IMG/VR virus record: IMGVR_UViG_3300020578_000060
Location: 1 to 64,000 of that record
Source: a virus
Length of the DNA stretch: 64,000 nucleotides
Reading direction: 5' to 3' (one strand)
Below the pieces are notes generated by a model. It did not search any database. It worked only from the letters and a program-made list of their open reading frames with translations, and was not told the DNA's origin. The position numbers and the translations under genes are program-made. This document shows positions 8,240 to 63,274 of the stretch, piece by piece (within the stretch, counting starts at the first letter, position 1; every line of letters starts with the position of its first letter).

Positions 8240-8246
8240 TACGATA

Positions 8247-8254: not shown

Positions 8255-8260
8255 TACTAT

Positions 8261-28144: not shown

Positions 28145-29263
28145 TTATACTTCTGATTGGGAAGTATTTGAAATTTGTTCGTAAGACGTTTCTAATTCTA
28201 CAACCCTTCTTTTAAAAATTTTATCATATACTTCGGATAATATATTATTTGATCCTTCCTCAGTATACTTACTTTCCCATTCAACCATACCTGTCATAAT
28301 ATTTTGAGGTAAGGCATCTTCTAAATACAAACCAACCATTGTTGCAATAATATCAGGTATCGCATTTAAATTTGCCGTCCATATACCATTATCGTTTAAA
28401 TTAAGATTTCCATTTGCATCCAATGTACCCATCCACTCAGGTACCATTCTAGGGATTTTACCAATTACAGGTGTTTTTACTTTCATTGACTCTAAAGGAA
28501 ATGTCCCAAAACTTGAAAGTTCGTCGACCCAAACACTTAAAAATGATTTAGATAATTCTTTAGCAAACATTTTTCTAGGTAAACCAGATAAATCTCTAAA
28601 CGTTATAAATCTATAATGTGGATATTTTTGATAAAATATTTTTACAATTTTTAATAATTCTCTTTTATCTCTTGCTACCATTGAAACCGTAGGTATTTTA
28701 GGTGTTCCATCACTTTCAAAATAAGAAGGTATACCGATAGGGATGACATCAGTTGTCAATCCTCTAAACATAGAATTTGCGTATTTACTTAAATTTTCAT
28801 TTGTAGTGATTACATCTCTAATACCAAATTGTTCCCAACCTTCACCAATCTCTAACATTTCAAAAATATATTCATAGGATTGGAGTAATACCACTCTTTT
28901 ACAAGGGAAATTAACAGTCTGTTTCATTATACTAGCAAACGCTTCTGGAATTATAACAAAATCAGAAGCACTTACCTGAAGTTTTTGTGATTCTATCGAT
29001 ACGTGAGGTAAATTCGCATATTCTTCACCCAACCATTCTGCAATACCAATACCATTTTCATCTTCACGTAATTTATAATCATTTTTATCATGTAAAATTT
29101 GGGCATTATAACCTAATTCTCTTAATTTTTTTACATGTTCGTAAATTGTTGCTACACCAGCAGTAGGATTACCTTTTGTGTCTATAGTAAAAAAATAAAT
29201 ACCAAAATCTTTATTATTTATCTTTTCAATAGACTCTTTAATTTTCTCTAATTGTTCACTCAT
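28145..29263 (-). CDS. GT-B fold glycosyltransferase
   Basis: The 372-residue protein has the two-domain GT-B look. An N-terminal domain contains TAGVATIYEHVKKLRELGYN, and the linker VIPIGIPSYF leads to a C-terminal donor-binding domain with SSFGTFPLESMKVKTPVIG (about residues 242-260), where the Glu of the FPLE segment matches the EX7E-like donor site. It is grouped with other glycosyltransferases and the sigma factor. The acceptor is unknown. Confidence 0.8.
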   Translation of the reverse strand: MSEQLEKIKESIEKINNKDFGIYFFTIDTKGNPTAGVATIYEHVKKLRELGYNAQILHDKNDYKLREDENGIGIAEWLGEEYANLPHVSIESQKLQVSASDFVIIPEAFASIMKQTVNFPCKRVVLLQSYEYIFEMLEIGEGWEQFGIRDVITTNENLSKYANSMFRGLTTDVIPIGIPSYFESDGTPKIPTVSMVARDKRELLKIVKIFYQKYPHYRFITFRDLSGLPRKMFAKELSKSFLSVWVDELSSFGTFPLESMKVKTPVIGKIPRMVPEWMGTLDANGNLNLNDNGIWTANLNAIPDIIATMVGLYLEDALPQNIMTGMVEWESKYTEEGSNNILSEVYDKIFKRRVVELETSYEQISNTSQSEV

Positions 29264-30420: not shown

Positions 30421-30798
30421 TTATTTTACAGTTTTTACCACACTTTTATATCCTTCACCATAATTTATACAAATTTCTTCACCTTTCTTAATATCCCTTA
30501 AAGTGAAAAATGTGAATACATTTTTTTCCTCATCAACTATCCAGTCAGCATTATTATTTTTAGAATGATTGTATATTGACCCATATCCCCAAACAACCAC
30601 TGAATTTTTTGCATTAATTTTTGGGTATGCGAATACATATTCTTGTAATTTTTTATTTATATCAAAAAATTTTTGTTCTAAAATAGTAAAATGACAATTT
30701 TCTATTATTTCACCAGATTTTATATTTTCTTTTGCAAATACACCCATACCATGTATAGGTGATTCTCTAACTTCAATCTTACTATTAATAAAAACCAT
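30421..30798 (-). CDS. SET-domain protein (putative protein-lysine methyltransferase)
   Basis: The 125-residue protein is a minimal SET domain. Its parts are SPIHGMGVFAKENIKSGEII (residues 13-32), the methyl-donor motif YNHSKNNNADW (about 75-85, matching NHSxxPN with Asn for Pro), TLRDIKKGEEICINYG (about 98-113) with the catalytic Tyr, and a short tail. SET enzymes methylate protein lysine using S-adenosylmethionine. The target, host or phage, is unknown. It sits one base from the PhoH gene. Confidence 0.88.
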   Translation of the reverse strand: MVFINSKIEVRESPIHGMGVFAKENIKSGEIIENCHFTILEQKFFDINKKLQEYVFAYPKINAKNSVVVWGYGSIYNHSKNNNADWIVDEEKNVFTFFTLRDIKKGEEICINYGEGYKSVVKTVK

Positions 30799-31554
30799 TT
30801 ACAATTCTAAAGATTCAAAAATTTCTTCTATTATTTTTATAATTGGGTTTCTAACAACATCTTTAGGATTTCTCAATTCCACACATCCAAAACCTTTAAC
30901 ATCTTTAAACTTTTCGATTACAACCTCTAAAGAACTATCTTTTTTATTTCTCAAGTCTTTTTGTTTAACATCTCCCATAATGACCATTTTGGAGTTATCT
31001 CCGATTCTAGTCATTAGTGTTCTAATATTTTCTAAAGTAATATTTTGTGCCTCATCCACTAATATGATGGAGTTATCGATACTGCGACCTCTGGCAAAAG
31101 CTATTGGTACAATTTCTATAACACCTAACTCAATTAATTTTTCCATTCTACTTTTACCAATAAGTTTTCTAATATTATCAGTAAATGACTCCATGATGGG
31201 TGCCATCTTTTCTTTTAGATCTCCAGGTAAATGCCCAATTTCTTCATTTTTCAGTGGAGTTATAGATTTTACTAGGACAATTCTTTTATATTTTTCGTGA
31301 GCTGTAACTAATTTTAATGCCTCAGCACACGATAAGAATGTTTTTCCTGATCCAGGTAACCCACTACAAATTGTAATCTCATTGTGTCTTATGGAATCTA
31401 CTAATTTTCTTTGGTTTTCGGTCTTACACTTTACGTTTATACTTATTGTATTAAAAAGTTTTTCTTCTTCTATATTGTTTCTATTAAGAAACGCTTCCAT
31501 TTCCTGGATTTCTTCTTCGGAAAGTTGTTTATTTTTTCTTCTGCTTCTGCTCAT
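30799..31554 (-). CDS. phoH: PhoH-like ATPase
   Basis: The 251-residue protein has Walker A SGLPGSGKTFLSCAEA (about residues 63-78), Walker B SIILVDEAQN (about 162-171) and the GDVKQKD sensor region, in the order of the PhoH/RNA-helicase-like family. PhoH-type genes are frequent in marine phages and are linked to RNA metabolism or phosphate stress; the exact role is unsettled. A short basic N-terminus (SRSRRKNKQ) precedes the domain. Confidence 0.9.
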   Translation of the reverse strand: MSRSRRKNKQLSEEEIQEMEAFLNRNNIEEEKLFNTISINVKCKTENQRKLVDSIRHNEITICSGLPGSGKTFLSCAEALKLVTAHEKYKRIVLVKSITPLKNEEIGHLPGDLKEKMAPIMESFTDNIRKLIGKSRMEKLIELGVIEIVPIAFARGRSIDNSIILVDEAQNITLENIRTLMTRIGDNSKMVIMGDVKQKDLRNKKDSSLEVVIEKFKDVKGFGCVELRNPKDVVRNPIIKIIEEIFESLEL

Positions 31555-31594: not shown

Positions 31595-32257
31595 TTATGC
31601 TACCCATATGTAAGTAGGTGTGTTAGCATAATTAATGGCATCGCATGTATACCCATATTTACCCAAAAAGAATTTTAGGTCATTAAATTCATTATTATTT
31701 TTTACTTCTGTAATTATTATAGGTTTGTTATTCTCGATAATTTTAGTAGCTTTAGTTAGTGCTTTTAGCTCATACCCCTCGATGTCCATTTTAATAACAG
31801 CAATATCATTTAAATCACCTATTAAATTATCTAATGTAGTACATTTAGTATCACCATTATTAATTTCTGATATGTGAGTAGATCCAGCATTTATATTAGA
31901 AACTAAGGACATACTAACAAATCCGTCAAAATCAGATATTGCGCAGTTATAAGTCACAAATTTATTATTATCTAAATTACGTAGTAAATTATTGTGTAAT
32001 ACGTTAAATATATTTTTTTCCGCTTCTATGGCTATAACTTTAGTTACTGGACAGAATAAACCAAAAAATAAAGAATGATTACCTACGTTAGCACCCAAGT
32101 CGATATATACCCCAGATTTTTCAAAAGATTTTATCTTGTTTAATAATTTTAGTTCGTAAAAACTACCCTTACTAAAATAATTTATATGCATTATATCCTG
32201 TTCACTTAAAACATCTATAGATACATTTTTATTATCATATTTTAAAATTGCTGACAT
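31595..32257 (-). CDS. FkbM-family methyltransferase
   Basis: The 220-residue protein has the S-adenosylmethionine site GVYIDLGANVGNHSLFF (about residues 49-65), the acidic loop VIAIEAEKN, and the FkbM end motif VIKMDIEGYELKAL (about 153-166). FkbM proteins O-methylate sugars or small molecules. As the last gene of the sugar cluster it probably methylates the glycan being built. Confidence 0.88.
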   Translation of the reverse strand: MSAILKYDNKNVSIDVLSEQDIMHINYFSKGSFYELKLLNKIKSFEKSGVYIDLGANVGNHSLFFGLFCPVTKVIAIEAEKNIFNVLHNNLLRNLDNNKFVTYNCAISDFDGFVSMSLVSNINAGSTHISEINNGDTKCTTLDNLIGDLNDIAVIKMDIEGYELKALTKATKIIENNKPIIITEVKNNNEFNDLKFFLGKYGYTCDAINYANTPTYIWVA

Positions 32258-32260
32258 AAC

Positions 32261-33277
32261 TTAATACATTTTATATTTTATATCCGATTTATTGTATATT
32301 TCCTCTATTAGTTTTATAACATTTAATGTTTCTGTTATATTAAAAACACTTAAATTTTTATAAACTTCTGGGTGATTTGGGCACGATCCCTGATAAGAGC
32401 CGTATGAGTTAGGATCTTTAGGGTAATTAAAATCCTTCAATAAGTTTTCATAGTGCAATGTTGCACCATGACTCAAGAAATTTGCTGATTCTATCACATT
32501 AAGAGCTTTACCACCTATTTTGATATAGCCATTTGAACCCAATAGTGAGATTGAACTTTCGATATTGTGCGGTTCTGCGGCAATTGTAGACTCTATCGTA
32601 CCACCAAAATTACCGTAATCTACTAGTGAATAAACAGTATCTTCAATCACACCGCCCTTATGTTTAGTAGTGTATACCTTAGTTCCGATAATATTTTTAG
32701 GTGATCCTATCAAATACTGTAATATGTCTAAATAATGAATCCCAGTTTCATACAAGATGCCACCACCTACTTTAGGTTCACCACGCCACCCAGAAAAATA
32801 CTCTAATGGTCTTTGCCACCTTTGCGCAAAACTAAAGCCCCTTATTTCACCTAATAATTTATTATCTAATATTTTTTTTGTTAGATGCACTGTAGGATTT
32901 AATCTAACTTGTAAAACACAATAAGCAGTTTTATTATTTTTTTTAGCATATTTTTCTATCTCAATAACGTCACTAATATTGAATGCTACTGGTTTTTCTA
33001 TTAATACATCACATTTTTTTTCTAATGCGTATATAGCTTGCTCTTTATGTAGGGAGTTTGGGGTTGCAATAACTACAAAATTTATATCTTCATAAGAAAT
33101 CATATCTTTAAATGATGTGTAGCTAGGTACGTTGTACCTCTCCCCTAAACTTTTTACCAAGGTCTCTTGTATATCACAAACACTTACTAGTGTAAATTCA
33201 TCCGAATTATTTTCAATGGCTTCCATATGTCTAGGAAATATTCCACCACACCCAATTATACCTACTCTATATTTCAT
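32261..33277 (-). CDS. Gfo/Idh/MocA-type sugar dehydrogenase (WbpB/WlbA-like)
   Basis: The 338-residue enzyme has the NAD site VGIIGCGGIFPRHMEAI (residues 5-21), the EKPVAFNISD motif with the key Lys, and a C-terminal sheet domain with WRGEPKVGGGILYETGIHYLD (about 165-185), the typical GGG..ETG.H.LD signature. It oxidises a nucleotide sugar. The neighbouring WbpD-like acetyltransferase suggests UDP-N-acetylglucosaminuronic acid 3-oxidation as in WbpB/WlbA. The matching aminotransferase (WbpE-like) was not found in this window. Confidence 0.88.
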   Translation of the reverse strand: MKYRVGIIGCGGIFPRHMEAIENNSDEFTLVSVCDIQETLVKSLGERYNVPSYTSFKDMISYEDINFVVIATPNSLHKEQAIYALEKKCDVLIEKPVAFNISDVIEIEKYAKKNNKTAYCVLQVRLNPTVHLTKKILDNKLLGEIRGFSFAQRWQRPLEYFSGWRGEPKVGGGILYETGIHYLDILQYLIGSPKNIIGTKVYTTKHKGGVIEDTVYSLVDYGNFGGTIESTIAAEPHNIESSISLLGSNGYIKIGGKALNVIESANFLSHGATLHYENLLKDFNYPKDPNSYGSYQGSCPNHPEVYKNLSVFNITETLNVIKLIEEIYNKSDIKYKMY

Positions 33278-33837
33278 TTTTTATACTTAAAAAATACTTG
33301 GTTATTAAAGGAAGTCTCGTCCCAGTGTAATATTTTTAAATTATTACTAGTTAATATGTTTTTATAATCCCTAGTCCAGCAATGATTAGATGATTTAGTT
33401 AAACCTTTTTCATACCAGGTTACTATAATAACCTCCTTACCTATTCTAGATAATTCATTAATCAACACCTCAATTTCATTATCTGGGGAATGTAATAACA
33501 CCTCAAATGCACATACTAGATCAAATTCATCGTCGTCGAAATTAGTTTTAATGTTTCCAGACTTATCAATAGTGTAAGTATCTATAGGTAAATTAATTAA
33601 ATTACAATTATCTTTTAGTTTTGAACTATACATAGATGATATGTCATAAAAATTTATAGACTTTTGACTACCGTATAATTCCAACATCCTACCAGTGCCT
33701 GGCCCATACTCTAGTATTTTTATCCCTGGCTCAATATGAGGGTTTACTATTTCTATATGGTGATTAGTTATCGAGCGACAAAAATTGTTATTTTTATCGA
33801 TCCTCTCATTCCAGTATTTAATTTTATCGTAATTCAT
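33274..33837 (-). CDS. Class I SAM-dependent methyltransferase
   Basis: The 187-residue protein has the glycine-rich site IKILEYGPGTGRMLEL (about residues 39-54) and the post-motif FDLVCAFEVLLHSPDN. The C-terminal part is short. It overlaps the dehydrogenase start by four bases (ATGA). It may methylate a sugar in the cluster's product; the target is not known. Confidence 0.85.
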   Translation of the reverse strand: MNYDKIKYWNERIDKNNNFCRSITNHHIEIVNPHIEPGIKILEYGPGTGRMLELYGSQKSINFYDISSMYSSKLKDNCNLINLPIDTYTIDKSGNIKTNFDDDEFDLVCAFEVLLHSPDNEIEVLINELSRIGKEVIIVTWYEKGLTKSSNHCWTRDYKNILTSNNLKILHWDETSFNNQVFFKYKK

Positions 33838-33838
33838 A

Positions 33839-34303
33839 TTATATTATTTTTGCTGGATTACCAAATGCTTTAACGGCATCAGGTATATTTTTAGTTACTA
33901 CGCTTCCTGCACCAATTAATGAGTTTTCTCCAATTGTGACACCACAAACTATAGTACTGTTAGCACCTATAGAGCACCCGTTTTTGAAGAGTGTCTTTCT
34001 AAATCTATCATTATTTTTCCAGTCACCACCTACTTGAGGTAAAAAATCATTAGTGGTTACTGTGTTTGGCCCTAAAAACACATTATCTTCTATAGTTACA
34101 CCTTCATATATCAAACTATGATTTTGTATCTTACAATTGTTACCTATGACTACATTTGGACCTATGTGTACACCCTCACCTATTACACAATTATTACCTA
34201 TGGTAACATTATCAGATATATGAGAAAATGCCCATATTTTAGTATTGTCACCCACGACAACACCTTTATCTACTATTGTAGTTTCATGAATAAAATATTT
34301 CAT
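33839..34303 (-). CDS. Left-handed beta-helix acetyltransferase (WbpD/WlbB-like)
   Basis: The 154-residue protein is made of hexapeptide repeats ([45 protein letters not shown]) with the loop [20 protein letters not shown], as in enzymes that acetylate the 3-amino group of UDP-2-acetamido-3-amino-glucuronic acid. It pairs with the dehydrogenase two genes downstream. Pathway assignment is by likeness and neighbourhood. Confidence 0.85.
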
Positions 34304-35043
34304 AAATCTTTTTTTAATTCTTTAGCTGGGTTACCAACCATAATTTTATTATCCTCAACGTCTCTAATTACAACAGCACCCATACCTATTAAAACACCAT
34401 CCCCTATTTTAATTCCGTTCTTTATCGAGGTGGATGGCGATATCCAACAATCAGACCCAATCTTAGCGCTTCCACCAATCATACTCTGCGCTATAATTAA
34501 AGTATTGTCACCTATTTCAACATTATGTGCTATATGTACTAAATTATCTATCTTTACTCCGTTACCTATTATAGTATTACTTAGTGCGCCCCTGTCAATA
34601 CAAACATTATTACCTATTTCCACATCATCACCTATAATTACATTACCAAAATGTGGGAATTTTAACCATTTACCATCATTATCTTTTATGTAACCAAAGC
34701 CGTCGTTACCTATAGAACAATTTTGCCCCATTATAAAATTTTTACCAGTTTTTATTTTACATTTTTCTGGTTTAAAAAAATTATTAATACATTTAACAAA
34801 ATAATATTTAGGATCATCCGTTATGATTATTAATTTGTTATTAACGTTTTTTTTAATAGGTGTAAATACAATTGAGGCTGAATTATCGAACCATTCTCCA
34901 TTAATAAATGTTATGTTTTTGTGAGTAGACTCTTTAGCGTTCCATGGGCCAGTTATTTCACCGTTAATATCCAAATCATCCGATAAAATGAAATCTAAAT
35001 TATTTGTTTTAATCCAATCTAATATTTGTATTATTTTAATCAT
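34300..35043 (-). CDS. LpxD-like left-handed beta-helix acyltransferase
   Basis: The 247-residue protein has an N-terminal alpha/beta domain. The helix that follows carries the LpxD-type signature: [20 protein letters not shown], then [16 protein letters not shown] and [13 protein letters not shown], with the likely catalytic His in [13 protein letters not shown]. LpxD acylates UDP-glucosamine in lipid A synthesis. Here, in a sugar cluster, the enzyme may N-acylate a different amino sugar. It overlaps the next gene by four bases. Confidence 0.85.
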
Positions 35044-35046
35044 AAA

Positions 35047-35676
35047 TTAATAGTTTTCTAGTGGGGTAATTTTATACCACCATATAGGGTGCGTATTCAT
35101 TATTATTTTATCACTTTTATTTACCCATTCATTTAGATCCCCCTCTCTCCATCTAGCACCAGAATCAGAAATATATTTAAAATCGTTTAACAAATATGCC
35201 TCATAATCTACATTAATTAATTTTATATTTTCATTGTCTATTATATAACCGCATCTACTAGGTTCGTGCGTTGATATTCCAGATACTTTTATTTTGAAGG
35301 TAGCCTCGAATAGTTCTATTAGTGTATTAATATATTTAATGTAATCTAAATTCATAAATTTATAATAATCTGGCTCAATGTGTAAACCGATCTCATGACC
35401 ATTCTCTATTAAATTAATAATAATTTTAGAATTGTCAATAGAAAAGGGGTTATAGTTTTTACTATTTAATCTTATGAAGTAGGTCGATTTTACCCCTAAG
35501 TCATCTTCTATACTAGAAAAATTTATTGTGTTTTGTAAACTAAAATCCACATCATGTCTAATAAGTATATGCTTATTAAAATTTAAATTATGATCTCTCA
35601 TAGGTGTTATATGATAACCATTTATAATGGAATTATGTAACATATCTCTATAATACTTTAATGTAAAATTACTCAT
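35047..35676 (-). CDS. Polysaccharide deacetylase-like (NodB fold) protein
   Basis: The 209-residue protein has the deacetylase start HILIRHDVDFSLQNT (Asp-Val-Asp in place of the usual TFDD), a second motif ENGHEIGLHIEP (His pair for metal) and a late TH(P)IWW segment (NTHPIWWYK). These are the elements of the carbohydrate esterase 4-like fold. It may remove an acetyl group from a sugar during glycan synthesis. Confidence 0.75.
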   Translation of the reverse strand: MSNFTLKYYRDMLHNSIINGYHITPMRDHNLNFNKHILIRHDVDFSLQNTINFSSIEDDLGVKSTYFIRLNSKNYNPFSIDNSKIIINLIENGHEIGLHIEPDYYKFMNLDYIKYINTLIELFEATFKIKVSGISTHEPSRCGYIIDNENIKLINVDYEAYLLNDFKYISDSGARWREGDLNEWVNKSDKIIMNTHPIWWYKITPLENY

Positions 35677-36661
35677 CGTTTAATATTTTTTCCTCAATAT
35701 ATTTTATAACGGATTTACCGTTATAACATTCTAGTAAATAATTTAAGTTAGACTCGCAAATACCGATCAATTTATTCTTGTCATAGCCCATGACTTCTTC
35801 TATTGTATTTTTTAGTGTAATTTCCGTAATACCCAGGTTAATTATGGGGCATTGTGTTTTAGACCCGTACCTATCAATACCGTCTTTTGCATTATTGATG
35901 CCGCACATGGTGACGTTACCACAAATTAATGATTCTATCGCAGCAACTCCGAATGATGATTCTATATTAAACTGATCTATATAGAATAATGATCTATTTT
36001 TTTGTTCCATAATAAAATTATGTGGTTTTCCAGTGTACATTTCATATTTAATGTCATTCCTATTCAATGAGTCTATTGTAGTTTTAATTATATTAGAACC
36101 CTTCCTTTCTGTGTTAGACGGACAGTGCATAAAAATCCTATTACCACTATTTATTTTATTCATCATATTATCCATGTATTGGTTTGGATCATGGTTAAAA
36201 CTCATAAAAGGTAGTAGTGTAATATCTTTTTTATTTTTATTAGATAACCTATATAAATCAATTGCGTAAATAATTCTGTGTAATTTATTATTTAATGGGT
36301 TATTGTTAAACTGAACATAATTTTTTCTATAATTAGATCCTGGGTGCCAAGCACTTATTTTTTTACCCTCAATGTTAATTCCTAATTTTCTAATAATATT
36401 ATTTAATGTATCATAATTACCCTTACCCATCTCTTCACTAAAAATTATATATTTAGATTCATTTACCCATTTTTTAGATAATTCTATATAATTAGCGCTA
36501 GTTAAATCATAATCGTGTTTTAATTGGTAATTAAATGGGTGTGGCATTAAACAAATTACTTTAGATTCATATTTTTCAGAGTAGTCATTGATTACTTTAG
36601 AATATTCGGTCAGGACATTTGCATAATCGCAATATGCCAAAAAAGCTATTTTTTCTTTCAT
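35669..36661 (-). CDS. GT-B type glycosyltransferase, divergent
   Basis: The 330-residue protein has two Rossmann-like halves. The C-terminal half holds FMHCPSNTERKGSNIIKT, the usual phosphate-contact opening, and IESSFGVAAIESLICGNVTM (about residues 233-252), a donor-site segment with the conserved Glu. Its N-terminal acceptor half is not family specific. It overlaps the deacetylase gene by eight bases and the upstream GT2 gene by four. Confidence 0.7.
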   Translation of the reverse strand: MKEKIAFLAYCDYANVLTEYSKVINDYSEKYESKVICLMPHPFNYQLKHDYDLTSANYIELSKKWVNESKYIIFSEEMGKGNYDTLNNIIRKLGINIEGKKISAWHPGSNYRKNYVQFNNNPLNNKLHRIIYAIDLYRLSNKNKKDITLLPFMSFNHDPNQYMDNMMNKINSGNRIFMHCPSNTERKGSNIIKTTIDSLNRNDIKYEMYTGKPHNFIMEQKNRSLFYIDQFNIESSFGVAAIESLICGNVTMCGINNAKDGIDRYGSKTQCPIINLGITEITLKNTIEEVMGYDKNKLIGICESNLNYLLECYNGKSVIKYIEEKILNDE

Positions 36662-37341
36662 ATAGTTTTTTCTATTATTAATTTTTTCACCTTTCTTAAT
36701 TGTGGGTGCATTTTAGAATCCGTATGTCCTAGGTGATTTATAAATATATTTTTAGGTTTATGTATTTTAAAATTAAATGCGTTTATTTTTTGTGATAGCT
36801 GTTCCCATACACCACTACCTGCATTCTTACCAGTAGGCTTTATTGGGTCAATGGTGAAATTAATTTTATCAAAAAATATTTTGTCAAATAAACCATCCCC
36901 ATCCATCCAATAAGTTAAATTCCATCTTTTAATTTTACTTATATGTGCGTATGTAGTACATACTATTTGCGAGTCTATTGTTTTAGCGGAATTATGTTCA
37001 TCCACTAATAGATCTATGAAGTGATCACATGTATCAAAATCATCTGGTATGGTTAATAAATAATCAAAATCGTATTTTTTAACTTCTACTAATAACTCAT
37101 TTATAGTTTGCCAATATTTATCTTTACCTTTATTATGGTTTGACCTTAAAAAGGTTACATCTTTAAACTCTTGACCTATGGATAAATACCTATTATCTGA
37201 AGAATAATTATCATTAACTATAATTTTAGTACTTATTTTTTTATCTTGTTTTATAATTTTATTGAGTAAGTTACATAACATATCGTACCTATTGTACGAT
37301 GCTATGATAATTATCAGATTGTATTTCTCTTTTTGTAACAT
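36658..37341 (-). CDS. Family 2-like glycosyltransferase (GT-A fold)
   Basis: The 227-residue protein starts NLIIIIASYNRYDMLCNLLN, then IVNDNYSSDN, and has a DxD-like PDDFDTCDHF (about residues 99-108). A late basic tail follows. The first 53 bases of the gene overlap the end of the upstream gene. It is one of the cluster's sugar transferases with unknown specificity. Confidence 0.8.
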   Translation of the reverse strand: MLQKEKYNLIIIIASYNRYDMLCNLLNKIIKQDKKISTKIIVNDNYSSDNRYLSIGQEFKDVTFLRSNHNKGKDKYWQTINELLVEVKKYDFDYLLTIPDDFDTCDHFIDLLVDEHNSAKTIDSQIVCTTYAHISKIKRWNLTYWMDGDGLFDKIFFDKINFTIDPIKPTGKNAGSGVWEQLSQKINAFNFKIHKPKNIFINHLGHTDSKMHPQLRKVKKLIIEKTI

Positions 37342-38227
37342 AATCTATAATATTTTTAGCCCAGCTTTTGGGTAAATAATTTTGTACTTTATTGTACCCA
37401 GAAAGCCTAATTTTATTTCTTATATCTTCATTTTTTAAATAAAACTCTATTTTATTTTTTAGTTCTTCCTCACTATTAAAAATTATTATATCTTCCCCAG
37501 GTATAAATGTATTTTCCATGTCTTTCCATGACGTAGTCATTAAAAATCCGCCAGATGCTAATATCTTGAAAATTCTTACTGAAACTCCGCTACCATCAGT
37601 TGGTGAAAAGTTTAAATTTATTTTACTTTGGTTAACTATTTTATTATGATCCAAACCATAAACCCCATTGTAATGTTTAAAACTACTAAATGAATTTTTT
37701 AGAAAATTTATATACTTGACCCTATCCCCATGTATGGCTGATGAGTCTGCCGACCCAATAAATGATATATCATCTAACCATTTATCTTCTAAATCATGAT
37801 CTAAAAAATTCATTAAATCATCTGGACATTGTTGTATGAATATACAATTTTTATTAAATTTTTCAGCATGAGGTACTACACCCTCTACACCACAAATAAA
37901 ATAATTACATCTTTTTATTTTTTCTATTAATTCCCCATCAAAATTATTCATTGCATCCATATACCATAAGGCAGTTTTAGAAATTTTATTACATTCATCA
38001 ATAACTCTGTAACTCATATTATTACATTTACTAAAAATAACTAAATCAGGTTTATATTTTTTTGCAACATCAATTAAATCAGAATCTCTGTTGTAGACAT
38101 TATTAAATTCTATTAATTTTTTTCTATAATCATATTCTAAAACTTCACAACCATTTTCTTTAAATCCCCTTGATTGAGACACATTGGTAGAGTTATGTGT
38201 AAATACTGCCACAAATAATATTTTCAT
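37289..38227 (-). CDS. GT-B glycosyltransferase (DUF3880 / Glyco_trans_1_2 type)
   Basis: The 312-residue protein has KILFVAVFTHNSTNVSQSRG and KPDLVIFSKCNN in its N-terminal half. Its C-terminal half carries the NFSPTDGSGVSVRIFKILASG stretch and the EEELKNKIEFYLKNEDIRNK tail typical of CgeB-like spore or surface-sugar transferases. The long 53-base overlap with the next gene suggests the C-terminus has extended into it. Confidence 0.8.
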   Translation of the reverse strand: MKILFVAVFTHNSTNVSQSRGFKENGCEVLEYDYRKKLIEFNNVYNRDSDLIDVAKKYKPDLVIFSKCNNMSYRVIDECNKISKTALWYMDAMNNFDGELIEKIKRCNYFICGVEGVVPHAEKFNKNCIFIQQCPDDLMNFLDHDLEDKWLDDISFIGSADSSAIHGDRVKYINFLKNSFSSFKHYNGVYGLDHNKIVNQSKINLNFSPTDGSGVSVRIFKILASGGFLMTTSWKDMENTFIPGEDIIIFNSEEELKNKIEFYLKNEDIRNKIRLSGYNKVQNYLPKSWAKNIIDYVTKREIQSDNYHSIVQ

Positions 38228-39019
38228 TTATAAATTTTTTAAAATCAATTCCTTTATTTCACTATGTTTTGGGGACCAATCACCGCCAGAATAAAATACC
38301 ACTTCACTATTAAATGGGTTCCAATCTCTTTCATACCGAATTCTATTATATTCGGTACTCCAAACCAAGTGCTTAAGTCCACATAAGCTAGCCAAATGCA
38401 TAGGGCCGCTGCTGGGTCCTATAATTAGTTTAGTATTATTAAAAATACCAACTAATTCTTTTAAATTTATACCCCTTAAATTTTCAGTACCACTAATATA
38501 AAATGATTCATCATTACCCACACAACCAATTTTTAAATTACTAGGTAGTGAATTATATAATTTTTCCCATTCTGACCTACCCCAATTTCTCTCAGAACCA
38601 GTAGATTTATTTCTACAATGGAACAGGACATCAAATGTGTTATCTGATTTGTAATTATATTTAAAAAATTCTTGTTCTGTAAAAAATAATTTTTTACTGT
38701 CAATTACACCATTATGTGTATACCTCATCCCAATATCAAATATTCCATTTAAGTATTTAGTATGGGGAATAGAATTAATTATATGGTCAAAATTTTTGGC
38801 GCCTTGGCAATTCCAAGCATCAGTTTTAAAGCTGCCTGGATCAAATTCAATGTATTCATCACAAAAATCTTCATATAAATACTTATTACCTGGTCTACCT
38901 ATGATAATTACCTTATCATATTGTCTAGATAGTTTTCTTACATATCCTTGCCAGCAAAATAATTCCCAACCAAATTCGCCTATCCAAGGTCCAGCCAATA
39001 AAATATTATCATTCTTCAT
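38228..39019 (-). CDS. Family 9-like (heptosyltransferase-type) glycosyltransferase
   Basis: The 263-residue protein starts ILLAGPWIGEFGWELFCWQG, with the Glu/Gly-rich acceptor loop. It has the donor-site motif IIGPSSGPMHLASLCG (about residues 200-215), typical of heptosyltransferase-like GT9 enzymes. The gene lies one base from its neighbour in the sugar cluster. The transferred sugar is unknown. Confidence 0.8.
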   Translation of the reverse strand: MKNDNILLAGPWIGEFGWELFCWQGYVRKLSRQYDKVIIIGRPGNKYLYEDFCDEYIEFDPGSFKTDAWNCQGAKNFDHIINSIPHTKYLNGIFDIGMRYTHNGVIDSKKLFFTEQEFFKYNYKSDNTFDVLFHCRNKSTGSERNWGRSEWEKLYNSLPSNLKIGCVGNDESFYISGTENLRGINLKELVGIFNNTKLIIGPSSGPMHLASLCGLKHLVWSTEYNRIRYERDWNPFNSEVVFYSGGDWSPKHSEIKELILKNL

Positions 39020-40658
39020 TATGGGTGTCTATATATATTTCTTTATATTTTTCTATAATCTGCCCGTTATCGAATATGGACATATCTTCTGGTACTTCAC
39101 TAAAAGTTTTACTTAAGTAGTTTCCGTGTTTATCTACCACATAAATCCATCCAGGCTTACCACATAAAAATCCCTCTATCGTAGTTCTACCTAAAAATAT
39201 ACCAGCAGTTTCGTCACATTTATTTACAAAGTCTTCTATTTTATCTGTGGGTGGGAAATACTTAACGTGATCATAAATATTAGAATATTCTTGAGCATAC
39301 CCCATGGTATCTTTACCCACAAGCCATAACTCCTCTGAATTATCTATTAGATCCTCTATGGAACTTTTCCTTAAATAATCCATTGTACCTACAAATAAAG
39401 TTACTTTTTTATCGGTTCCCTTATCTAATTTTTTTTCAGTAAACCTACTTTTATCAAATAGGTTATATATAACCTCAACTTTGGATTCGTCAACATTAAA
39501 ATTATTTACGATATAATCTTTGATCGACGACCTAATTGCTATGTATTTTTTTATTTTAGTATCTACAACTGGATTCTCTAGATCAATTACTTCAGATCTA
39601 ACAATATTTACAAAATTATTATTTGGGTATAGTTGCAATAATCTTTGAGTTACTGGTGTATGATTAGAATGTATTACATCAAACTTCATGTCTTTTATGA
39701 AATAAAGCATGTTTGGCTGACTTACTTTAAAACCTTCTGGTGTATTAATACCCCATTTACCATCACCTACTTTATACCCAGGGGGTTCATTTAGATCAAA
39801 TACTTTGATATTATATTTTTCGGATTCTCTTTTAAATGTAGGTCCAATTTGGGATACTACATATACTTCACAACCATTTTTAGCTAAACCTTTAGCTAAT
39901 TCCATGGTAGATATTTCTGATCCAGTTAAACCTTGAAAATTTAAACACCCTATAAGAACTCTTAATTTTCTATTTTTAAACTCATCCCTAACCTTTTGTG
40001 GTAGTCGATCTTTATATTTTTCAACAAATTGTAATCTATTATTTTCCCATTCTTGGTTTGTTTGACCAATAGACATGTGGTTTATTCTTATATTAGTTAC
40101 CACACCTACTTTAACTTTAGATAAGAAATTACTAAAGCAGAAATCTACATCATAAAAATGAAACCCTTTAACATCTTCATTGAATGGGTTTTCATTATTA
40201 TTAATTCTATTTTTATGTATAGAAAAAAATAATCCGTCTACATTAATTACCTCTTCAATACCGTCATTTAAATCTACACTATATTCAGAAAGCCAGCTTT
40301 TATTATTGTGGGTATGTTTTACTTTACCATACATGGCTTTTGGTTTTTCCCACCATTTACCAGAGATTGGCATATATTTACTACCAGCTACACCTAATAT
40401 ACCATATTCATTATTTTTATCAAAATGCTTTTTAATTTTATTACCCCATTGTTTAGTTTCTATCAATATATCATCATGACAAAATACTACAATATCGTTT
40501 TTTGCTAGTTTATATCCCCTATTATAAGATTTAGTCAGGGATTCTCCGTTATTTATGATTTCAATAACTTCTATGTTCTTCTGTAACCCAGATGTTTTTA
40601 TAATGTGTTCTTTATGTTTTGGGTTTGTTTCTCTAGTACAGTAAACTACACTAATCAT
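39009..40658 (-). CDS. Two-domain glycosyltransferase (GT-A/GT2 fused to GT-B/GT4)
   Basis: The 549-residue protein joins an N-terminal GT2-like domain (ISVVYCTRETNP, FCHDDILI as the DxD-like site, DVDFCFSNFL; about residues 1-220) to a GT-B domain. The latter has LNFQGLTGSEISTMELAKGL as acceptor loop, VIYNLFDKSRF linker, and TLFVGTMDYLRKSSIEDLID with EGFLCGKPGWIYV as donor site. Two transferases in one chain could add two sugars in order. It is the first gene of the cluster and overlaps the end of the small upstream frame. Confidence 0.85.
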   Translation of the reverse strand: MISVVYCTRETNPKHKEHIIKTSGLQKNIEVIEIINNGESLTKSYNRGYKLAKNDIVVFCHDDILIETKQWGNKIKKHFDKNNEYGILGVAGSKYMPISGKWWEKPKAMYGKVKHTHNNKSWLSEYSVDLNDGIEEVINVDGLFFSIHKNRINNNENPFNEDVKGFHFYDVDFCFSNFLSKVKVGVVTNIRINHMSIGQTNQEWENNRLQFVEKYKDRLPQKVRDEFKNRKLRVLIGCLNFQGLTGSEISTMELAKGLAKNGCEVYVVSQIGPTFKRESEKYNIKVFDLNEPPGYKVGDGKWGINTPEGFKVSQPNMLYFIKDMKFDVIHSNHTPVTQRLLQLYPNNNFVNIVRSEVIDLENPVVDTKIKKYIAIRSSIKDYIVNNFNVDESKVEVIYNLFDKSRFTEKKLDKGTDKKVTLFVGTMDYLRKSSIEDLIDNSEELWLVGKDTMGYAQEYSNIYDHVKYFPPTDKIEDFVNKCDETAGIFLGRTTIEGFLCGKPGWIYVVDKHGNYLSKTFSEVPEDMSIFDNGQIIEKYKEIYIDTHNEE

Positions 40659-40835: not shown

Positions 40836-41411
40836 TTATTTAACCCCAGTAGATCCAAATCCACCGTCCCCTCTATTAGTCTCAGATAAATTATTCACCC
40901 TAACTAATTCACTAATACCTTGACCTACTACATTCATTAATACACCCTGAGCGATTCTTTCGCCAGGTTGTATTGTATAATCCTCATTACTTAGATTAAC
41001 TACAATAACCCCAACGTCACCTCTATAACCTTCATCTACTGTTCCTGGTGTATTTAAAACCGATATACCATACTTTAATGCCATACCACTTCTGGGTCTA
41101 ACTTGTAATTCAGTATTAGGAGATAACTCAAATTTTAGTCCTGTCGGAATTAATTTTCTTTCAAGAGGTTTAAGTGTTATAGGTTCAGTTATAAATGCCC
41201 TTAAATCAAATCCACTGTCCCCAACTTTAGCATATTCAGGATCAGGATTATTAGAATTGTTAGTAAATTTTGTTTTTATTTTAAAATCATTAAAGTCTAA
41301 ATTAAGTAAATTCTGTCCTTCTACAGATTCTATATGTGACATTAATGATTGCAATTCTTCTAATTGCCTTAACTCTTGTTCAAAAGAAGAATCTAAATCG
41401 TTTATTTCCAT
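40836..41411 (-). CDS. dut: dUTP diphosphatase (dUTPase)
   Basis: This 191-residue trimeric-type dUTPase hydrolyses dUTP to dUMP, keeping uracil out of phage DNA. All five motifs are present in order: GDSGFDLRA, RPRSGMALK, TPGTVDEGYRGDVGV, GERIAQ and RGDGGFGSTG. The N-terminal 45 residues are an acidic helical extension beyond the usual core. It lies in a nucleotide/early-type block between the sugar cluster and an HD-like gene. Confidence 0.96.
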   Translation of the reverse strand: MEINDLDSSFEQELRQLEELQSLMSHIESVEGQNLLNLDFNDFKIKTKFTNNSNNPDPEYAKVGDSGFDLRAFITEPITLKPLERKLIPTGLKFELSPNTELQVRPRSGMALKYGISVLNTPGTVDEGYRGDVGVIVVNLSNEDYTIQPGERIAQGVLMNVVGQGISELVRVNNLSETNRGDGGFGSTGVK

Positions 41412-42000: not shown

Positions 42001-43257
42001 TTATTTTACTAAATCAACCCCCAAACTTCTTTTTTCTAAAACTAATTTACTGTAAAGTTCTCTTCTTTGTTGACAAACGGTTTTCATATCATACCTACCA
42101 TTTACAGTATTGTATAAATTCTCCCCAATCTTAGAAATTAATTTAGGATTTTCAACTAACCTTTTTAAATGATTATACCATAATTTATGATTTTTTGCGG
42201 AAGATATTAAAAATCCATTACCATTTTTGTTGATAGTTCCTCCTTTTTCATAAGACTCAATAATATCTATTTGATATGGTCCAAAGTCTTGTGCAATAAT
42301 TACTTTTTTATGGAAACCTGCCTCAATCACTTTAAGTTGTGATTTTACTTTATTAAAATTACTTTCTTTTAATGGGGCTAAAGATATGTCAAATAAATTA
42401 TAATTTGAGGCGTATGAAGTAATTGGTTTTGTCCACACCCTCCTATAAGGTTCATTTATGACATTTGGGTATTCTTTATTTTCAAATGTCAATAAAAAAT
42501 CTCTATATTCATCACTTACTATTTTATAATCATCTGTAAATATTTTTTCATACTGATACCATACTGATTCTTTTGGTTTAATAGGTCTTTGTTTTTGTTC
42601 GCCAGTATTTCTATCAATTGTGGTAAAGGTACCTCTTAAATCATACCCACATAATACAAACTGTACCTTATCTATTAATCCATCACTTTTAAATTTATTT
42701 ACTAAACCTTTTAAAATTTCTAAATCTTTTAAATGTGAAGAACCACCTAACCAACCTATTCTTATTCTGTCACTTTTTTCTGAATTATTTTGATATTGTT
42801 TTTCTAAGGTATCAATAGCGTTTGGAATTACAAATACGTTTTTATTGTATTTACTTATTTCATCCGCAAATACTTTTGTTGTAGTTGTTATATTTTTAGA
42901 TACTTTTAAATTATTAAGAATTTTTTTATCTAATTCATGTTTTTTAATAATTTCCCAAGCTGGGTGATCAGGACCAGGTGACCAATGATCATCTATATCC
43001 ATAATAGTTGCAATACCTAAATTATCGCACCTATCTAATAAATTCTTTAAATTATTATAATCCCCTAACGTTCTGTGGTAGTGAATTAAATCATATTTTT
43101 TTAAATATTCATCATTATTTAATTCAGGTTCGTAATCAATGTCCACATGAAATTCATTAGGGAAATATTCTTCTAATTTAATGTGTGGAATTGTAGATCT
43201 ATAATATGAAACTCCTGTTCTGTCACTTGGGACAACTAATACTTTAATTTTACTCAT
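42001..43257 (-). CDS. GT-B (GT4-like) glycosyltransferase
   Basis: The 418-residue protein has VVPSDRTGVSYYRSTIPHI, the DIDDHWSPGPDHPAW acidic loop, the linker VFVIPNAIDTLEKQ and the donor-domain start RIGWLGGSSHLKDLEILKGL. The late FDISLAPLKESNFNKVKSQL segment supplies the conserved Glu and Lys. Enzymes of this form (with MDIDDHW) occur near phage structural or surface-sugar genes. It is separate from the ten-gene cluster. Confidence 0.82.
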   Translation of the reverse strand: MSKIKVLVVPSDRTGVSYYRSTIPHIKLEEYFPNEFHVDIDYEPELNNDEYLKKYDLIHYHRTLGDYNNLKNLLDRCDNLGIATIMDIDDHWSPGPDHPAWEIIKKHELDKKILNNLKVSKNITTTTKVFADEISKYNKNVFVIPNAIDTLEKQYQNNSEKSDRIRIGWLGGSSHLKDLEILKGLVNKFKSDGLIDKVQFVLCGYDLRGTFTTIDRNTGEQKQRPIKPKESVWYQYEKIFTDDYKIVSDEYRDFLLTFENKEYPNVINEPYRRVWTKPITSYASNYNLFDISLAPLKESNFNKVKSQLKVIEAGFHKKVIIAQDFGPYQIDIIESYEKGGTINKNGNGFLISSAKNHKLWYNHLKRLVENPKLISKIGENLYNTVNGRYDMKTVCQQRRELYSKLVLEKRSLGVDLVK

Positions 43258-43596: not shown

Positions 43597-45675
43597 CTAT
43601 ACTAATACTAGATGATCTTTTTTAGTTGTAATAAAACCTAAACTAGTTAAAAGACTGGCAATTGTAGAAGATGGAATAGTTTCACTTGTACTTGTATGTA
43701 ATTTTACATATATACTATTTTCCACAAAAATACCTTTTTCATAACGTCTCCAAACTGATATACCCCAAAAATATAATTTTTTTCCTTTGACATTACCTAA
43801 TAAAACTGTACCACTAAATTTTTCATTTTTATAAGTATTATATTTACCTAAATACGCATCAAGTTTTTTAGCATTTGGGAATAAAGTTGAACCTAAATTT
43901 TCTTCTTTAGTAGATAATTTAAAAGTAATTAAATTTGATCCATCACTTAAATTTTTAACAGAAGTTTTTGACATTAATTTGGTTATATTATTAAGGTCGA
44001 TAGTATCTATTTCTGGCCCATTTATATTTTTTACAAAATCTATAAAATCTTTTGGTGTAAAATTTATTTTATTTGGTTTTTCGTTAGGAACTAATTTAAA
44101 TGGTGTTAAATCAGTATCTCCTAAAATTTTTGGGTCGGATGTCATAGTATGGGGTGCGTATAATCTTTTAAAACTGAATTTATCAGGTAGATTATCTTTA
44201 CTTACTCTTATGACATCATTTGCAGTTAATTCTAAATTAGAAGATTCGCAATTATCTAAAAGATAATTTCTCATTTTTTCAGTGATATGTTTTGTTGCCG
44301 CAGGATATTGTTTAGATTCAGAACCAAAATTATAAAATACATTCATTTCAGCACCTTCACAAAAAGTATCATTTTTATATTTAACCTTTAAACCTTTCCA
44401 TAAACAGTATCCACCGTATATTTTTGGTTCATTACATTTACCTTTATAAATTTCAGGTTCCTGACCCGCTTCATATCTTGAGTAATGGTAAAGGGGTAAG
44501 TATTTTTTATACATATTTTCACTCACATCTGTTGCCGAAGATGAAGGTTTAAAAACTGCGGTTTTTGTTGCAATATCGTATACTAACCATCCTTTTTGTA
44601 GTCCAGCAGGTGGATTCATTAATTGAGCATCTTTTTGTGCCGCCTTTTTTTCTGATCCTTTTTCTATGATGTTACCGCAAGCATCTAATTTCATAACTTT
44701 TATCTCACTATAATCATTTTCTTCACTTATAGAAGGTGTACAGGCATGATAAATAACCGTTTGTGAATTACCTCTTTTAATTCTAATTTCAGGTGTACTA
44801 GAGTGACATCTACCTGTGGAATTGGCACACGTAAAAGAAATTAAAATATTTCCATCTGATGTTGATGAAGTCGCATCAATGATTTGAACTGCTTGTTGTG
44901 GAGTAATAGTAAAAGAACTAATTCTAGATCCACCATCATTTGCGTTATTTAAATTGGCTAGACCTATTACAACACCGTTCAATAATACATTAAATTTAGC
45001 ATCATCACATACATGACCACCTCTACACGGCCAACTAGGATCTTCATTTCTGTTATATATAACATCTATTGTTAATCCTTCTAAACATGCGGTAGGCGGA
45101 ACAAACTTAACCAATACCTTAATGTATTGTTCATTTTTAAATTTTTGATCATCAGCTTTATCCCCATCATCTGGTTTCCAAGGTGTAGGACCAATTTTTA
45201 TTAATGGTTCTTGAAATGTGGGTATTTCACTTAATGTCCCATCTTTAACTAATTTAGTGAAAAAATTTGTTAAATATTTTGTAATAGTTTCAGCACGTTT
45301 TCTTGACAACCATTCAGGTGCAACTTTTTTAGGGGGGTCAACTTCACCGTTATAATTAGGTACTTGAGACTCACTAGCTTCAACCTGAACTATTAAAACT
45401 TTAGATGAGCTTGTTATTTTACCACCACGTTTTTTTATTTCTTCTGATTTTTCTTTTATCCAGTCAACTGCACTTTGTAAATCGCTATCAAAGGTTTTTG
45501 GTAGTAATTTCCACATACCAGAATCAAAATTCTTACTTAATGGTACTTCTATAGTATTACCATCATCTTCTTTTAATAATTCATATTCATATATTTTAGT
45601 TTTATAATCGTCAGTTTTATAAACCATTAAAGATTTCATTCTTTTTAACTCTTCAAAAAGATTAGAATTCTTCAT
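43597..45675 (-). CDS. Large virion-type protein with OmpA-like N-terminal region
   Basis: The 692-residue protein starts MKNSNLFEELKRMKSLMVY. Residues about 65-205 (LQSAVDWIKEKSEEI, KVLIVQVEASESQVPN, WLSRKRAETITKYLTNFF, EQYIKVLVKF) follow the strand-helix-strand order of OmpA C-terminal (peptidoglycan-binding) domains, including the SRKRAE.. helix. The middle is beta-rich with Cys pairs, and the end is an alpha/beta domain. It could be a virion protein that contacts the cell wall. The OmpA link is moderate. Confidence 0.55.
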   Translation of the reverse strand: MKNSNLFEELKRMKSLMVYKTDDYKTKIYEYELLKEDDGNTIEVPLSKNFDSGMWKLLPKTFDSDLQSAVDWIKEKSEEIKKRGGKITSSSKVLIVQVEASESQVPNYNGEVDPPKKVAPEWLSRKRAETITKYLTNFFTKLVKDGTLSEIPTFQEPLIKIGPTPWKPDDGDKADDQKFKNEQYIKVLVKFVPPTACLEGLTIDVIYNRNEDPSWPCRGGHVCDDAKFNVLLNGVVIGLANLNNANDGGSRISSFTITPQQAVQIIDATSSTSDGNILISFTCANSTGRCHSSTPEIRIKRGNSQTVIYHACTPSISEENDYSEIKVMKLDACGNIIEKGSEKKAAQKDAQLMNPPAGLQKGWLVYDIATKTAVFKPSSSATDVSENMYKKYLPLYHYSRYEAGQEPEIYKGKCNEPKIYGGYCLWKGLKVKYKNDTFCEGAEMNVFYNFGSESKQYPAATKHITEKMRNYLLDNCESSNLELTANDVIRVSKDNLPDKFSFKRLYAPHTMTSDPKILGDTDLTPFKLVPNEKPNKINFTPKDFIDFVKNINGPEIDTIDLNNITKLMSKTSVKNLSDGSNLITFKLSTKEENLGSTLFPNAKKLDAYLGKYNTYKNEKFSGTVLLGNVKGKKLYFWGISVWRRYEKGIFVENSIYVKLHTSTSETIPSSTIASLLTSLGFITTKKDHLVLV

Positions 45676-60089: not shown

Positions 60090-60355
60090 TCTTTAAGTAA
60101 TTGATTCTTTATTAGACTCACTGCCTCATCAATAGTGTTAAAAGATTTTTCAGGTACAAACGCAGTTCTATCCATTAAAATTGCTGGCAGATATTCATTG
60201 TTAACTTTTTTAGAAAAATTATTATATAATTCCTCATGTTCGTCAATATCAATATCAATATAATCTATATTATTTTCATTTAATTTACTTTTTAATTTTT
60301 CACAATGAGGGCATCCTTTCATTGAAAATACTTTTACTCTTACATCAGTTTCCAT
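60086..60355 (-). CDS. Glutaredoxin
   Basis: The 89-residue protein is a full glutaredoxin: strand VKVFSMKGCPHCEKLKSKL with active site CPHC (residues 15-18), then a cis-Pro region EYLPAILMD (about 54-62) and a C-terminal helix. It reduces disulfides, for example in ribonucleotide reductase, as T4 NrdC does. It overlaps the helicase gene by eleven bases, and its 3' end meets the convergent gene. Confidence 0.92.
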   Translation of the reverse strand: METDVRVKVFSMKGCPHCEKLKSKLNENNIDYIDIDIDEHEELYNNFSKKVNNEYLPAILMDRTAFVPEKSFNTIDEAVSLIKNQLLKD

Positions 60356-63239: not shown

Positions 63240-63244
63240 ATTTT

Positions 63245-63252
63245 CAAAGATA
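63245..63252 (-). promoter_or_regulatory. TATCTTTG element before the helicase gene
   Basis: TATCTTTG fits the Bacteroidota -7 form TAnnTTTG. It ends five bases before the ATG at 63239, so transcription from it would start at about the start codon. No TTTG partner is obvious 20 bases upstream, which lowers confidence. Confidence 0.4.
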
Positions 63253-63274
63253 CACAATTTTTTCTTAAAAATAA

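Follow-up and report, generated by a model that had tools for sequence, protein, structure and literature searches.

T4-like pelagimyophages and cyanomyophages carry hypervariable glycosyltransferase (GT) islands in their structural region, which are non-syntenic, vary between relatives and encode several GTs together with sugar-synthesis enzymes (PMC7029224). The locus analysed here, in a 64,000-nucleotide stretch of phage DNA (the window), is likewise a GT-rich island without synteny, set in the structural region of genomes that are syntenic elsewhere. It differs from the published islands, which average 34–45 kb and include tail-fibre and other genes, in being compact (3.4–8.6 kb across loci), in having sharp boundaries (one within an anchor GT, the other just before phoH), and in being enclosed by constant GTs on both sides, with an exchangeable second domain in the anchor. 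The pelagimyophage island is defined as running from VrlC to gp14 with tail-fibre genes inside it, whereas here the limits are the anchor GT and phoH. Jumbo cyanophages have comparable sugar or LPS clusters: that of P-SSM2, a phage of a different T4-like lineage, has about 15 genes, including Gmd/epimerase, GTs and methyltransferases, and is polymorphic between related phages (PMC7824862), but its neighbours are the metabolic genes hli, psbA and petE, whereas the present locus has constant GTs on either side and lies in the virion region. Since glycan islands of cyano- and pelagiphages are already known, the new part is the fixed, sharply bounded and exchangeable cassette.

Eukaryotic viruses offer further parallels. 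The chlorovirus PBCV-1 has largely soluble viral GTs, some of them multidomain, together with Gmd and GDP-fucose synthesis, and builds glycans with a constant core and variable parts, antigenic classes being known there (PMC5408694, PMC7826918); the present phages likewise encode soluble GTs and nucleotide-sugar enzymes. Megavirinae have clade-specific clusters of 6–33 sugar genes, frequently located at a single site flanked by conserved genes, for which exchange by recombination is suggested (PMC10117803); a shared boundary enzyme with a swapped domain, as in our anchor, is not known to be described for them. Chlorovirus GT genes are scattered and their capsid glycans have been demonstrated, and fibril glycosylation in the amoeba-infecting Megavirinae has been shown chemically, whereas the exchangeable cassette described here is known from its genes.

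The window belongs to a Far-T4-like phage, whose IMG/VR record is 68 kb long and has a sister contig of more than 250 kb; the group is a large set of uncultured, T4-related giant (jumbo) phages. It encodes a T4-type portal (Portal_T4, E = 1.5e-78), a major capsid protein with matches in 2,498 phage records, RM378 (36% identity) and T4-like phages among them, and a late sigma factor (E = 1e-4); the Far-T4 placement, drawn from these three matches, is approximate. A megablast search with the region found no match in 50,697 phage records, and neither the anchor nor the conserved 372-aa GT matched a named phage in tblastn. Shine–Dalgarno motifs are nearly missing (6% use in the window and 5% in the related contig L004; Cellulophaga phage 9%, RM378 24%, P-SSM2 26%, a pelagiphage 48%), which suggests a Bacteroidota host, the phylum to which published Far-T4 host predictions also point (PMC7198788). 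The sole match in genome collections is a 64-kb contig inside a Prochlorococcus single-cell genome. Because Shine–Dalgarno use and the published predictions favour Bacteroidota, we do not regard Prochlorococcus as the host; the contig may represent a virion that was co-sorted with the cell.

A fixed locus with exchangeable content

Every relative with enough sequence carries some cassette at the identical position, and none of the 36 loci whose upstream sequence reaches 7 kb or more (some of them duplicate contigs) has an empty site. The 30 distinct complete cassettes comprise 237 genes in 111 families. The sister contigs L003 and L004 are 96% identical across flanks of 7,051 and 10,777 bp, yet the approximately 2.8 kb between these flanks has zero similarity and cannot be aligned. 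Relatives at 86% core identity have no cassette gene in common with the window, and one at 56% core identity has 7 of 10. The locus is thus a fixed position at which hypervariable, exchangeable content is replaced wholesale.

The left boundary of the cassette falls within the bifunctional anchor GT (549 aa, 39009–40658, minus strand). This gene was described from sequence as a GT2–GT4 fusion, and it indeed combines Glyco_tranf_2_5 (E = 3e-32) with Glyco_transf_4 (E = 2e-11). The N-terminal, GT2-like domain is conserved among relatives. The second domain is exchangeable and occurs as three alternative types, that of the window being GT4; nucleotide similarity between the window and L003 stops at 40008. 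A dUTPase-like gene, assigned by eye (40836–41411, minus strand), is a common left neighbour, immediately preceding 38 of the 99 anchor ORFs examined. The right boundary is a non-sugar gene of the frame, encoding a PhoH-like ATPase (30799–31554, minus strand; Pfam E = 3e-61), and in L003/L004 the break lies about 24 bp ahead of its start codon.

Three further transferases had been noted outside the cluster, and all three are conserved frame genes on the minus strand: GT418 (42001–43257; PHROG glycosyltransferase, E = 1e-40; 86% in L003), GT372 (28145–29263) and the GT2 enzyme GT2_258 (27183–27959; Pfam E = 2e-16). GT2_258 is found in 80/80 loci, as is GT372 in the 80 loci kept from a scan that GT372 itself seeded. 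The profile match of GT372 to 8xsg (E = 4e-10) relates it distantly to the glucosyltransferase AmGGT; Agt, a homologue of AmGGT, is a cytoplasmic enzyme that extends glucose already attached to protein. The cassette sits in the structural-gene region. The fibre genes form a separate block about 8–10 kb away from it, and they too differ between L003 and L004.

Parts of the window's cassette are found apart in other phages. The GT9–CgeB gene pair occurs separately in L025, and a block of GT-B, hexapeptide, methyltransferase and WlbA genes occurs separately in L019 and L164; the left junction between anchor and GT9 gene is seen again in L025 and L117. Judged by these occurrences, the window's cassette is a mosaic. 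The sequence-only reading had allowed that an O-antigen segment was captured whole from a host, an origin that we reject because the cassette is a mosaic and because the conserved phage frame includes the boundary gene as well as the three GTs outside the cassette. The same reading would have given way to absence of the cluster from other isolates or to inactivating changes in its genes. The exact cassette is in fact absent from the nearest relatives, every relative with enough sequence having another at the same spot, and the cassette genes common to the window and other phages are intact and under purifying selection (dN/dS about 0.09–0.28).

Genes of the window's cassette

Between 31595 and 40658 lie eleven intact minus-strand ORFs, and neighbours mostly overlap or are separated by a few bases. 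The tight run had been recognised from sequence, but counted as ten genes, although the accompanying list also names eleven. About the functions named there, in a phage with a T4-like portal, PhoH and a late sigma factor, are upheld below.

Beside the anchor gene are those for a GT9-like enzyme (263 aa, 38228–39019) and a CgeB-like GT (Glyco_trans_1_2; 312 aa, 37289–38227; Pfam E = 8e-23), which are coupled in many phage contigs. When the GT9-like protein was used as the query of a profile search, the five top-scoring solved structures were all GT9 heptosyltransferases (E = 0.001–0.01); its structure model is confident (pLDDT 84.5), and it is 75% identical to its L025 counterpart. They are followed by a GT2 enzyme (227 aa, 36658–37341; Pfam E = 5e-6) and a putative GT-B-type protein (330 aa, 35669–36661). 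The latter gave no match in Pfam or PDB-sequence searches and is recurrent in phage sugar cassettes, with counterparts at 53% in L164 and 36% in L019.

A polysaccharide-deacetylase-like protein (209 aa, 35047–35676) carries RHDVD, HEIGLH and NTHP motifs, which are retained in L164 and agree with its earlier assignment, but its database matches to deacetylases are weak (E = 0.04–0.08). A scan seeded by this protein alone found no relatives, the L164 relative having come by another route. Two hexapeptide acyltransferases (Pfam E = 5e-31 and 2e-20) are encoded next. The LpxD-like N-acyltransferase (247 aa, 34300–35043; TIGR01853, E = 1e-54) deserves that name for residues 96–245, where the match lies, under the family cutoff. 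The sugar N-acetyltransferase (154 aa, 33839–34303) and the Gfo/Idh/MocA sugar dehydrogenase (338 aa, 32261–33277; Pfam E = 3e-27) are of the types first called WbpD-like and WbpB-like. They are better named WlbB-like and WlbA-like after their matches to 3mqg (E = 1e-36) and 3q2i (E = 4e-43), entries that we take to be WlbB and WlbA, respectively. The dehydrogenase is 76% identical to that of L019, whose aminotransferase is missing beside the window's WlbA/WlbB pair. Between the two genes lies one for a SAM-dependent methyltransferase (Methyltransf_23; 187 aa, 33274–33837; Pfam E = 1e-7; 59% in L019), and an FkbM-type methyltransferase (220 aa, 31595–32257; Pfam E = 1.6e-15) is the final gene of the variable cassette.

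The motif ATATTTAT is present in 19/63 upstream regions against 1.1 expected. As in L004 it extends beyond virion genes, we dropped an argument for late expression that was based on it. Terminator-like sites show no excess (7, against 5.4 in shuffles).

Candidate acceptors of the glycan

We favour cytosolic glycosylation of virion proteins by phage enzymes, with a virion protein as the candidate acceptor, and rank this above host-surface modification and above DNA glycosylation; on the evidence of the genes we hold it to be somewhat probable. The soluble frame GTs (42001, 28145 and 27183) and the first domain of the anchor (39009) would start and build an inner glycan on at least one phage structural protein in the host cytosol. 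The cassette between anchor and phoH would provide nucleotide sugars and an outer, decorated portion, which in the window probably contains acylated amino- or uronic-type and O-methylated sugars and in other cassettes may contain 6-deoxyhexoses and sulfated sugars. Exchange of the cassette would proceed by recombination within its conserved flanks, and near-identical phages would therefore bear different coats, which makes this a candidate 'serotype' locus. The benefit could be escape from whatever binds virions, or tuning of adsorption.

This reading draws on the fixed site with exchanged content, the combination of constant and variable GTs, the soluble pathway, the position in the structural region near variable fibre genes, the distant relationship of conserved GT372 to AmGGT, the homologue of Agt, and the precedent of chlorovirus capsid glycans (PMC5408694). 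The Actinobacillus cytoplasmic NGT/Agt system is similarly soluble and independent of a lipid carrier, as we propose here, but combines a GT41 enzyme with an Agt-type extender; we find an Agt-like relative, and no GT41-type protein N-glycosyltransferase in 12 records, the window's own included. The missing GT41 enzyme counts against a virion acceptor, as do the missing aminotransferase beside WlbA/WlbB and the behaviour of AmGGT itself, which does not accept glycopeptides and uses oligosaccharides instead. A true serotype locus in the full sense, in which a lipid-carrier-free cytosolic pathway coats the virion with a glycan whose inner part is constant and whose outer part is swapped, the two being joined by the bifunctional anchor, is plausible but falls short of probable.

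Alternatively, during infection the enzymes may act from the cytosolic side to alter LPS, O-antigen or capsule precursors of the host, and thereby keep rival phages from binding the cell or new virions from sticking to debris. Similar pelagi- and cyanophage islands are read in this way, as host O-chain modification, by their authors (PMC7029224, PMC7824862), and soluble GTs could also act on a host lipid-linked precursor. The locus resembles bacterial O-antigen loci in its conserved flanks and its exchangeable block of NDP-sugar synthesis, GTs and modifying enzymes. To this extent its description as an O-antigen segment stands, but it lacks the initiating phosphoglycosyl transferase as well as the flippase and polymerase or ABC exporter, encodes no multi-helix protein in its cassettes, and adjoins virion genes in a phage. 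Membrane segments are predicted in none of the window's cassette genes and in 0/363 and 1/736 cassette proteins of two overlapping sets (total 1,099), among which flippases, polymerases, initiating transferases and membrane-segment acyltransferases are absent; in the E. coli O16 cluster the same prediction picks out both flippase and polymerase. Flippase (PF01943, Polysacc_synt) and initiating-transferase (PF02397, Bac_transf) families are found in 0/12 relatives' records, with control genomes positive. Phage gtr-type seroconversion, with its GtrA flippase and membrane GtrB/GtrC, also differs from this cluster without membrane proteins. The carrier, flippase and polymerase could come from the host. 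However, the cassette is in the structural region, whereas the P-SSM2 cluster is located among metabolic genes, and it is present in all loci checked, although a superinfection trait might be optional. We consider host remodelling unlikely, if still a serious contender, and the sequence evidence leans towards a virion glycan.

T4-type phages glycosylate their DNA, and sugars on modified phage bases could block restriction, with cassettes varying because nucleases vary. A variable modification would fit such an arms race, and a distant GT418 relative lies in a four-GT cluster adjoining replication genes in Phapecoctavirus. In T4-type glucosylation a dCMP hydroxymethylase supplies the acceptor base. 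A thymidylate-synthase-family gene is present in 8/12 records (the four without it include fragmentary window relatives); one homologue, when profiled, was named thymidylate synthase, and all six read from relatives keep the LPFN Asn of the genuine enzyme, so that this family yielded no dCMP hydroxymethylase. To our knowledge, multi-sugar cassettes with O-methylation, acylation and sulfation go beyond known DNA glycans, and we regard this explanation as improbable. It is more improbable still that the product is a small sugar-containing molecule, free or secreted, as proposed in the form of a secondary-metabolite cluster for some jumbo cyanophages (PMC7824862), because conserved GTs with variable outer GTs suit a layered glycan and the cassettes showed no export genes. 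Least credible is an assembly artefact that fused unrelated sugar clusters onto phage flanks: all members are metagenome contigs and assemblers break or chimerise at hypervariable loci, but the site is constant in all relatives and is occupied in 30 distinct loci, which come from many metagenomes, several cassettes recur across metagenomes (for example L039/L044 and L056/L070), sub-blocks recur in order (L164, L025), the genes run in operon with short overlaps, and the anchor–GT9 junction is repeated.

Possible consequences for phage surface variation

If the acceptor is host LPS, the locus would still be a sharply bounded, testable example of phage-driven surface change. Receptor-binding proteins are the usual basis for typing phages. 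If the locus instead glycosylates virions, a whole surface glycan would be swappable through one locus in a genome that is nearly constant elsewhere, and otherwise near-identical phages would be glycan serotypes of each other. L003 and L004, which differ in the compared region mainly by the cassette and fibre-side genes, provide a natural experiment. The cassettes would also be a source of many uncharacterised soluble GTs and a lipid-free route to complex protein glycans. The virion sugar coat would then join the bacterial O-antigen as a fast-evolving trait, and this would affect adsorption, competition and the interactions with anything that binds or eats virions.

Conserved frame and exchanged cassette

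Close relatives were obtained by a PhoH scan, and those sharing the frame have the gene order GT418, HD187, dUTPase-like, anchor, cassette, PhoH, 202, 111, GT372, GT2_258 and sigma, with the genes at the cassette position varying (window GT418, 42001-43257; GT372, 28145-29263; GT2_258, 27183-27959; all minus strand). The flanks of the sister contigs L003 and L004 are 96.0% identical across 7,051 bp and 96.1% identical across 10,777 bp in nucleotide comparison, and the ~2.8 kb between them is unalignable. The right break lies ~24 bp before the start codon of phoH (window 30799-31554, minus strand). Similarity between the window and L003 stops at 40008, within the anchor gene, and restarts at 31608, just before phoH. 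Immediately after phoH the window encodes a SET-domain protein (30421-30798, minus strand; PF00856, E 3e-18), present in L003 and L004 and not in many relatives.

The 30 distinct complete cassettes are 3.4-8.6 kb long with 4-12 genes each; their 237 genes fall into 111 families, 65 of which have a single member. None of the window's cassette genes occurs in L003 or L004 (core 86%) or in the related contig L006 (core 78%), and two occur in L025 (core 80%); L164 (core 56%) has 7/10 of the window's cassette genes. This incongruence between frame and cassette indicates horizontal exchange or repeated replacement. Of 36 loci in which the sequence upstream of gene 202 spans 7 kb or more (duplicate contigs among them), none has an empty site. 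GT372, GT2_258 and the sigma gene occur together in 80/80 loci, and the 397 detected relatives of GT372 include none in named phages.

When the window is compared with four divergent members, residues 1 to ~220 of the 549-residue anchor (39009-40658, minus strand) show 55-63% identity, whereas the second part, among 67 distinct proteins, is of GT4 type in 53 and of GT2 type in 10, with a third type in the other 4. The locus therefore changes from constant to variable within a bifunctional enzyme, whose first transfer we infer to be constant and the following one variable.

Enzymes encoded by the cassettes

In the window, 31595-40658 comprises eleven intact genes including the anchor, all on the minus strand and most of them abutting or sharing a few bases with the next. 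Profile matches identify a Glyco_tranf_2_5 domain fused to a GT4 domain in the anchor, a GT2, a CgeB-like transferase, two left-handed β-helix acyltransferases, a Gfo/Idh/MocA dehydrogenase, an FkbM methyltransferase and a second methyltransferase. With a profile built from 14 relatives, the five best solved relatives of a 263-residue protein are GT9 heptosyltransferases. A 209-residue protein matches deacetylases weakly, and both it and its L164 relative keep the RHDVD, HEIGLH and NTHP motifs. The 330-residue putative 'GT-B' protein matches no Pfam family or PDB sequence and is also found in sugar cassettes of other phages. The sequence-only reading had labelled two products WbpB-like and WbpD-like; the dehydrogenase and acetyltransferase roles stand, but the Wbp names give way to closer matches, 3q2i/3q2k for the dehydrogenase and 3mqg for the small acetyltransferase, which we take to be WlbA and WlbB, respectively.

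L164 keeps the window's order of GT-B, deacetylase, LpxD-like, WlbB-like, methyltransferase and WlbA-like genes, plus one hexapeptide gene. This block is partly present in L019, a record without GT372, where a DegT aminotransferase sits between the WlbB-like and methyltransferase genes. The window and L164 have no aminotransferase at this position, which prevents a precise assignment of the sugar. L006 encodes GT2, GT11 and GT10-like transferases, an FkbM methyltransferase, a sulfotransferase, a DegT aminotransferase, an epimerase and a GDP-mannose-dehydratase-like enzyme (408 bits, below the 415 cutoff). In the first set of loci the two commonest cassette families are that of this Gmd-like enzyme (33 members) and an SDR epimerase family (29 members), whose genes often adjoin phoH. 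Compared with other phages, cassette genes show dN/dS of 0.09-0.28 with synonymous sites near saturation.

Soluble assembly and the candidate acceptor

A membrane segment is predicted in only one protein out of 363 + 736 cassette proteins (two partly overlapping locus sets); the same simple test finds five helices in the E. coli O16 polymerase and seven in the flippase. Initiating-transferase and flippase families were detected in 0/12 relatives' records, with control genomes positive. These results indicate that the glycan would be assembled by soluble enzymes and that its acceptor must be accessible from the cytosol: a phage protein, a host lipid-linked precursor or DNA.

We favour a phage protein, because the locus lies within the virion-gene region and was never missing, because it pairs constant with variable transferases, much as chlorovirus capsid glycans join a constant core to variable parts (PMC5408694, PMC7826918), and because one constant transferase is a distant relative of AmGGT/Agt, of which Agt elongates, in the cytoplasm, glucose already attached to protein. 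A host lipid-linked precursor ranks below this; published hypervariable GT islands of T4-like pelagimyophages and cyanomyophages (PMC7029224) and sugar clusters of jumbo cyanophages (PMC7824862) have been interpreted as host-surface modification. DNA is an unlikely acceptor, because all six thymidylate-synthase homologues examined are ordinary.

Megavirinae are known to carry glycan clusters at fixed positions, and these clusters vary from clade to clade (PMC10117803). Relative to the literature searched, the new features are this phage group, the sharply mapped limits of exchange, an anchor enzyme whose second domain is interchangeable, constant transferases on the flanks, the almost complete absence of membrane steps and the frame/cassette incongruence. 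Escherichia phage anhysbys (L114, Phapecoctavirus) has four adjoining GT genes beside replication genes (6738-9882), one a distant relative of GT418; such clusters in cultured E. coli phages offer a possible tractable model.

Carrier phage, host and variable genes

The window (bases 1-64000 of a 68,047-base IMG/VR virus record) encodes a T4-like portal protein, a capsid protein matching T4-like phages, Rhodothermus phage RM378 among them, and a late sigma factor. The 253,879-base contig of its close relative L004 ends inside the structural region, and the group are thus jumbo phages. A Shine-Dalgarno motif precedes 6% of start codons in the window's phage, 9% in a Cellulophaga phage and 24-48% in RM378, P-SSM2 and a pelagiphage. 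This rarity, with published Far-T4 host predictions (PMC7198788), suggests a Bacteroidota host. A 64-kb contig of the group (L100, QCKH01000009.1) is present in the single-cell genome of Prochlorococcus sp. AG-409-L21, reflecting either infection or a co-sorted virion.

The motif ATATTTAT lies within 60 bp upstream of 19/63 window genes (1.1 expected), and in L004 mostly 15-30 bp ahead of the start codon; it is probably a phage promoter element. The extreme contig edge encodes the C-terminal part of a tyrosinase-like protein, unusual for a phage (6-710, plus strand; PF00264, E 5e-9). By eye, a GIY-YIG-like homing-endonuclease gene (15325-16017, plus strand) is flanked by capsid-module genes. 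The family-B DNA polymerase (54280-58182, plus strand) has an intein with a LAGLIDADG endonuclease domain, and a helicase-like protein (60345-63257, minus strand) also appears by eye to bear an intein, the L004 copy being far shorter (597 residues).

A fibre-like protein (48903-50990, plus strand) combines SHAEG repeats with a Peptidase_G2 autoproteolytic domain (E 2e-35), and its repeat length varies among relatives (1714 residues in L004, 2030 in L003). In L003 and L004 a paralogue adjoins the counterpart of the window's 692-residue gene (43597-45675, minus strand; paralogue at 225860-227653 of the L004 contig); at 36% identity between these otherwise 96%-identical contigs, the paralogue adds another hypervariable gene to the vicinity of the glycan locus. 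Apart from the cassette, the large differences between L003 and L004 in the compared region are in the fibre genes, a 4-kb insertion included, and in this paralogue, and the rapidly changing parts of these phages may therefore all face outside.
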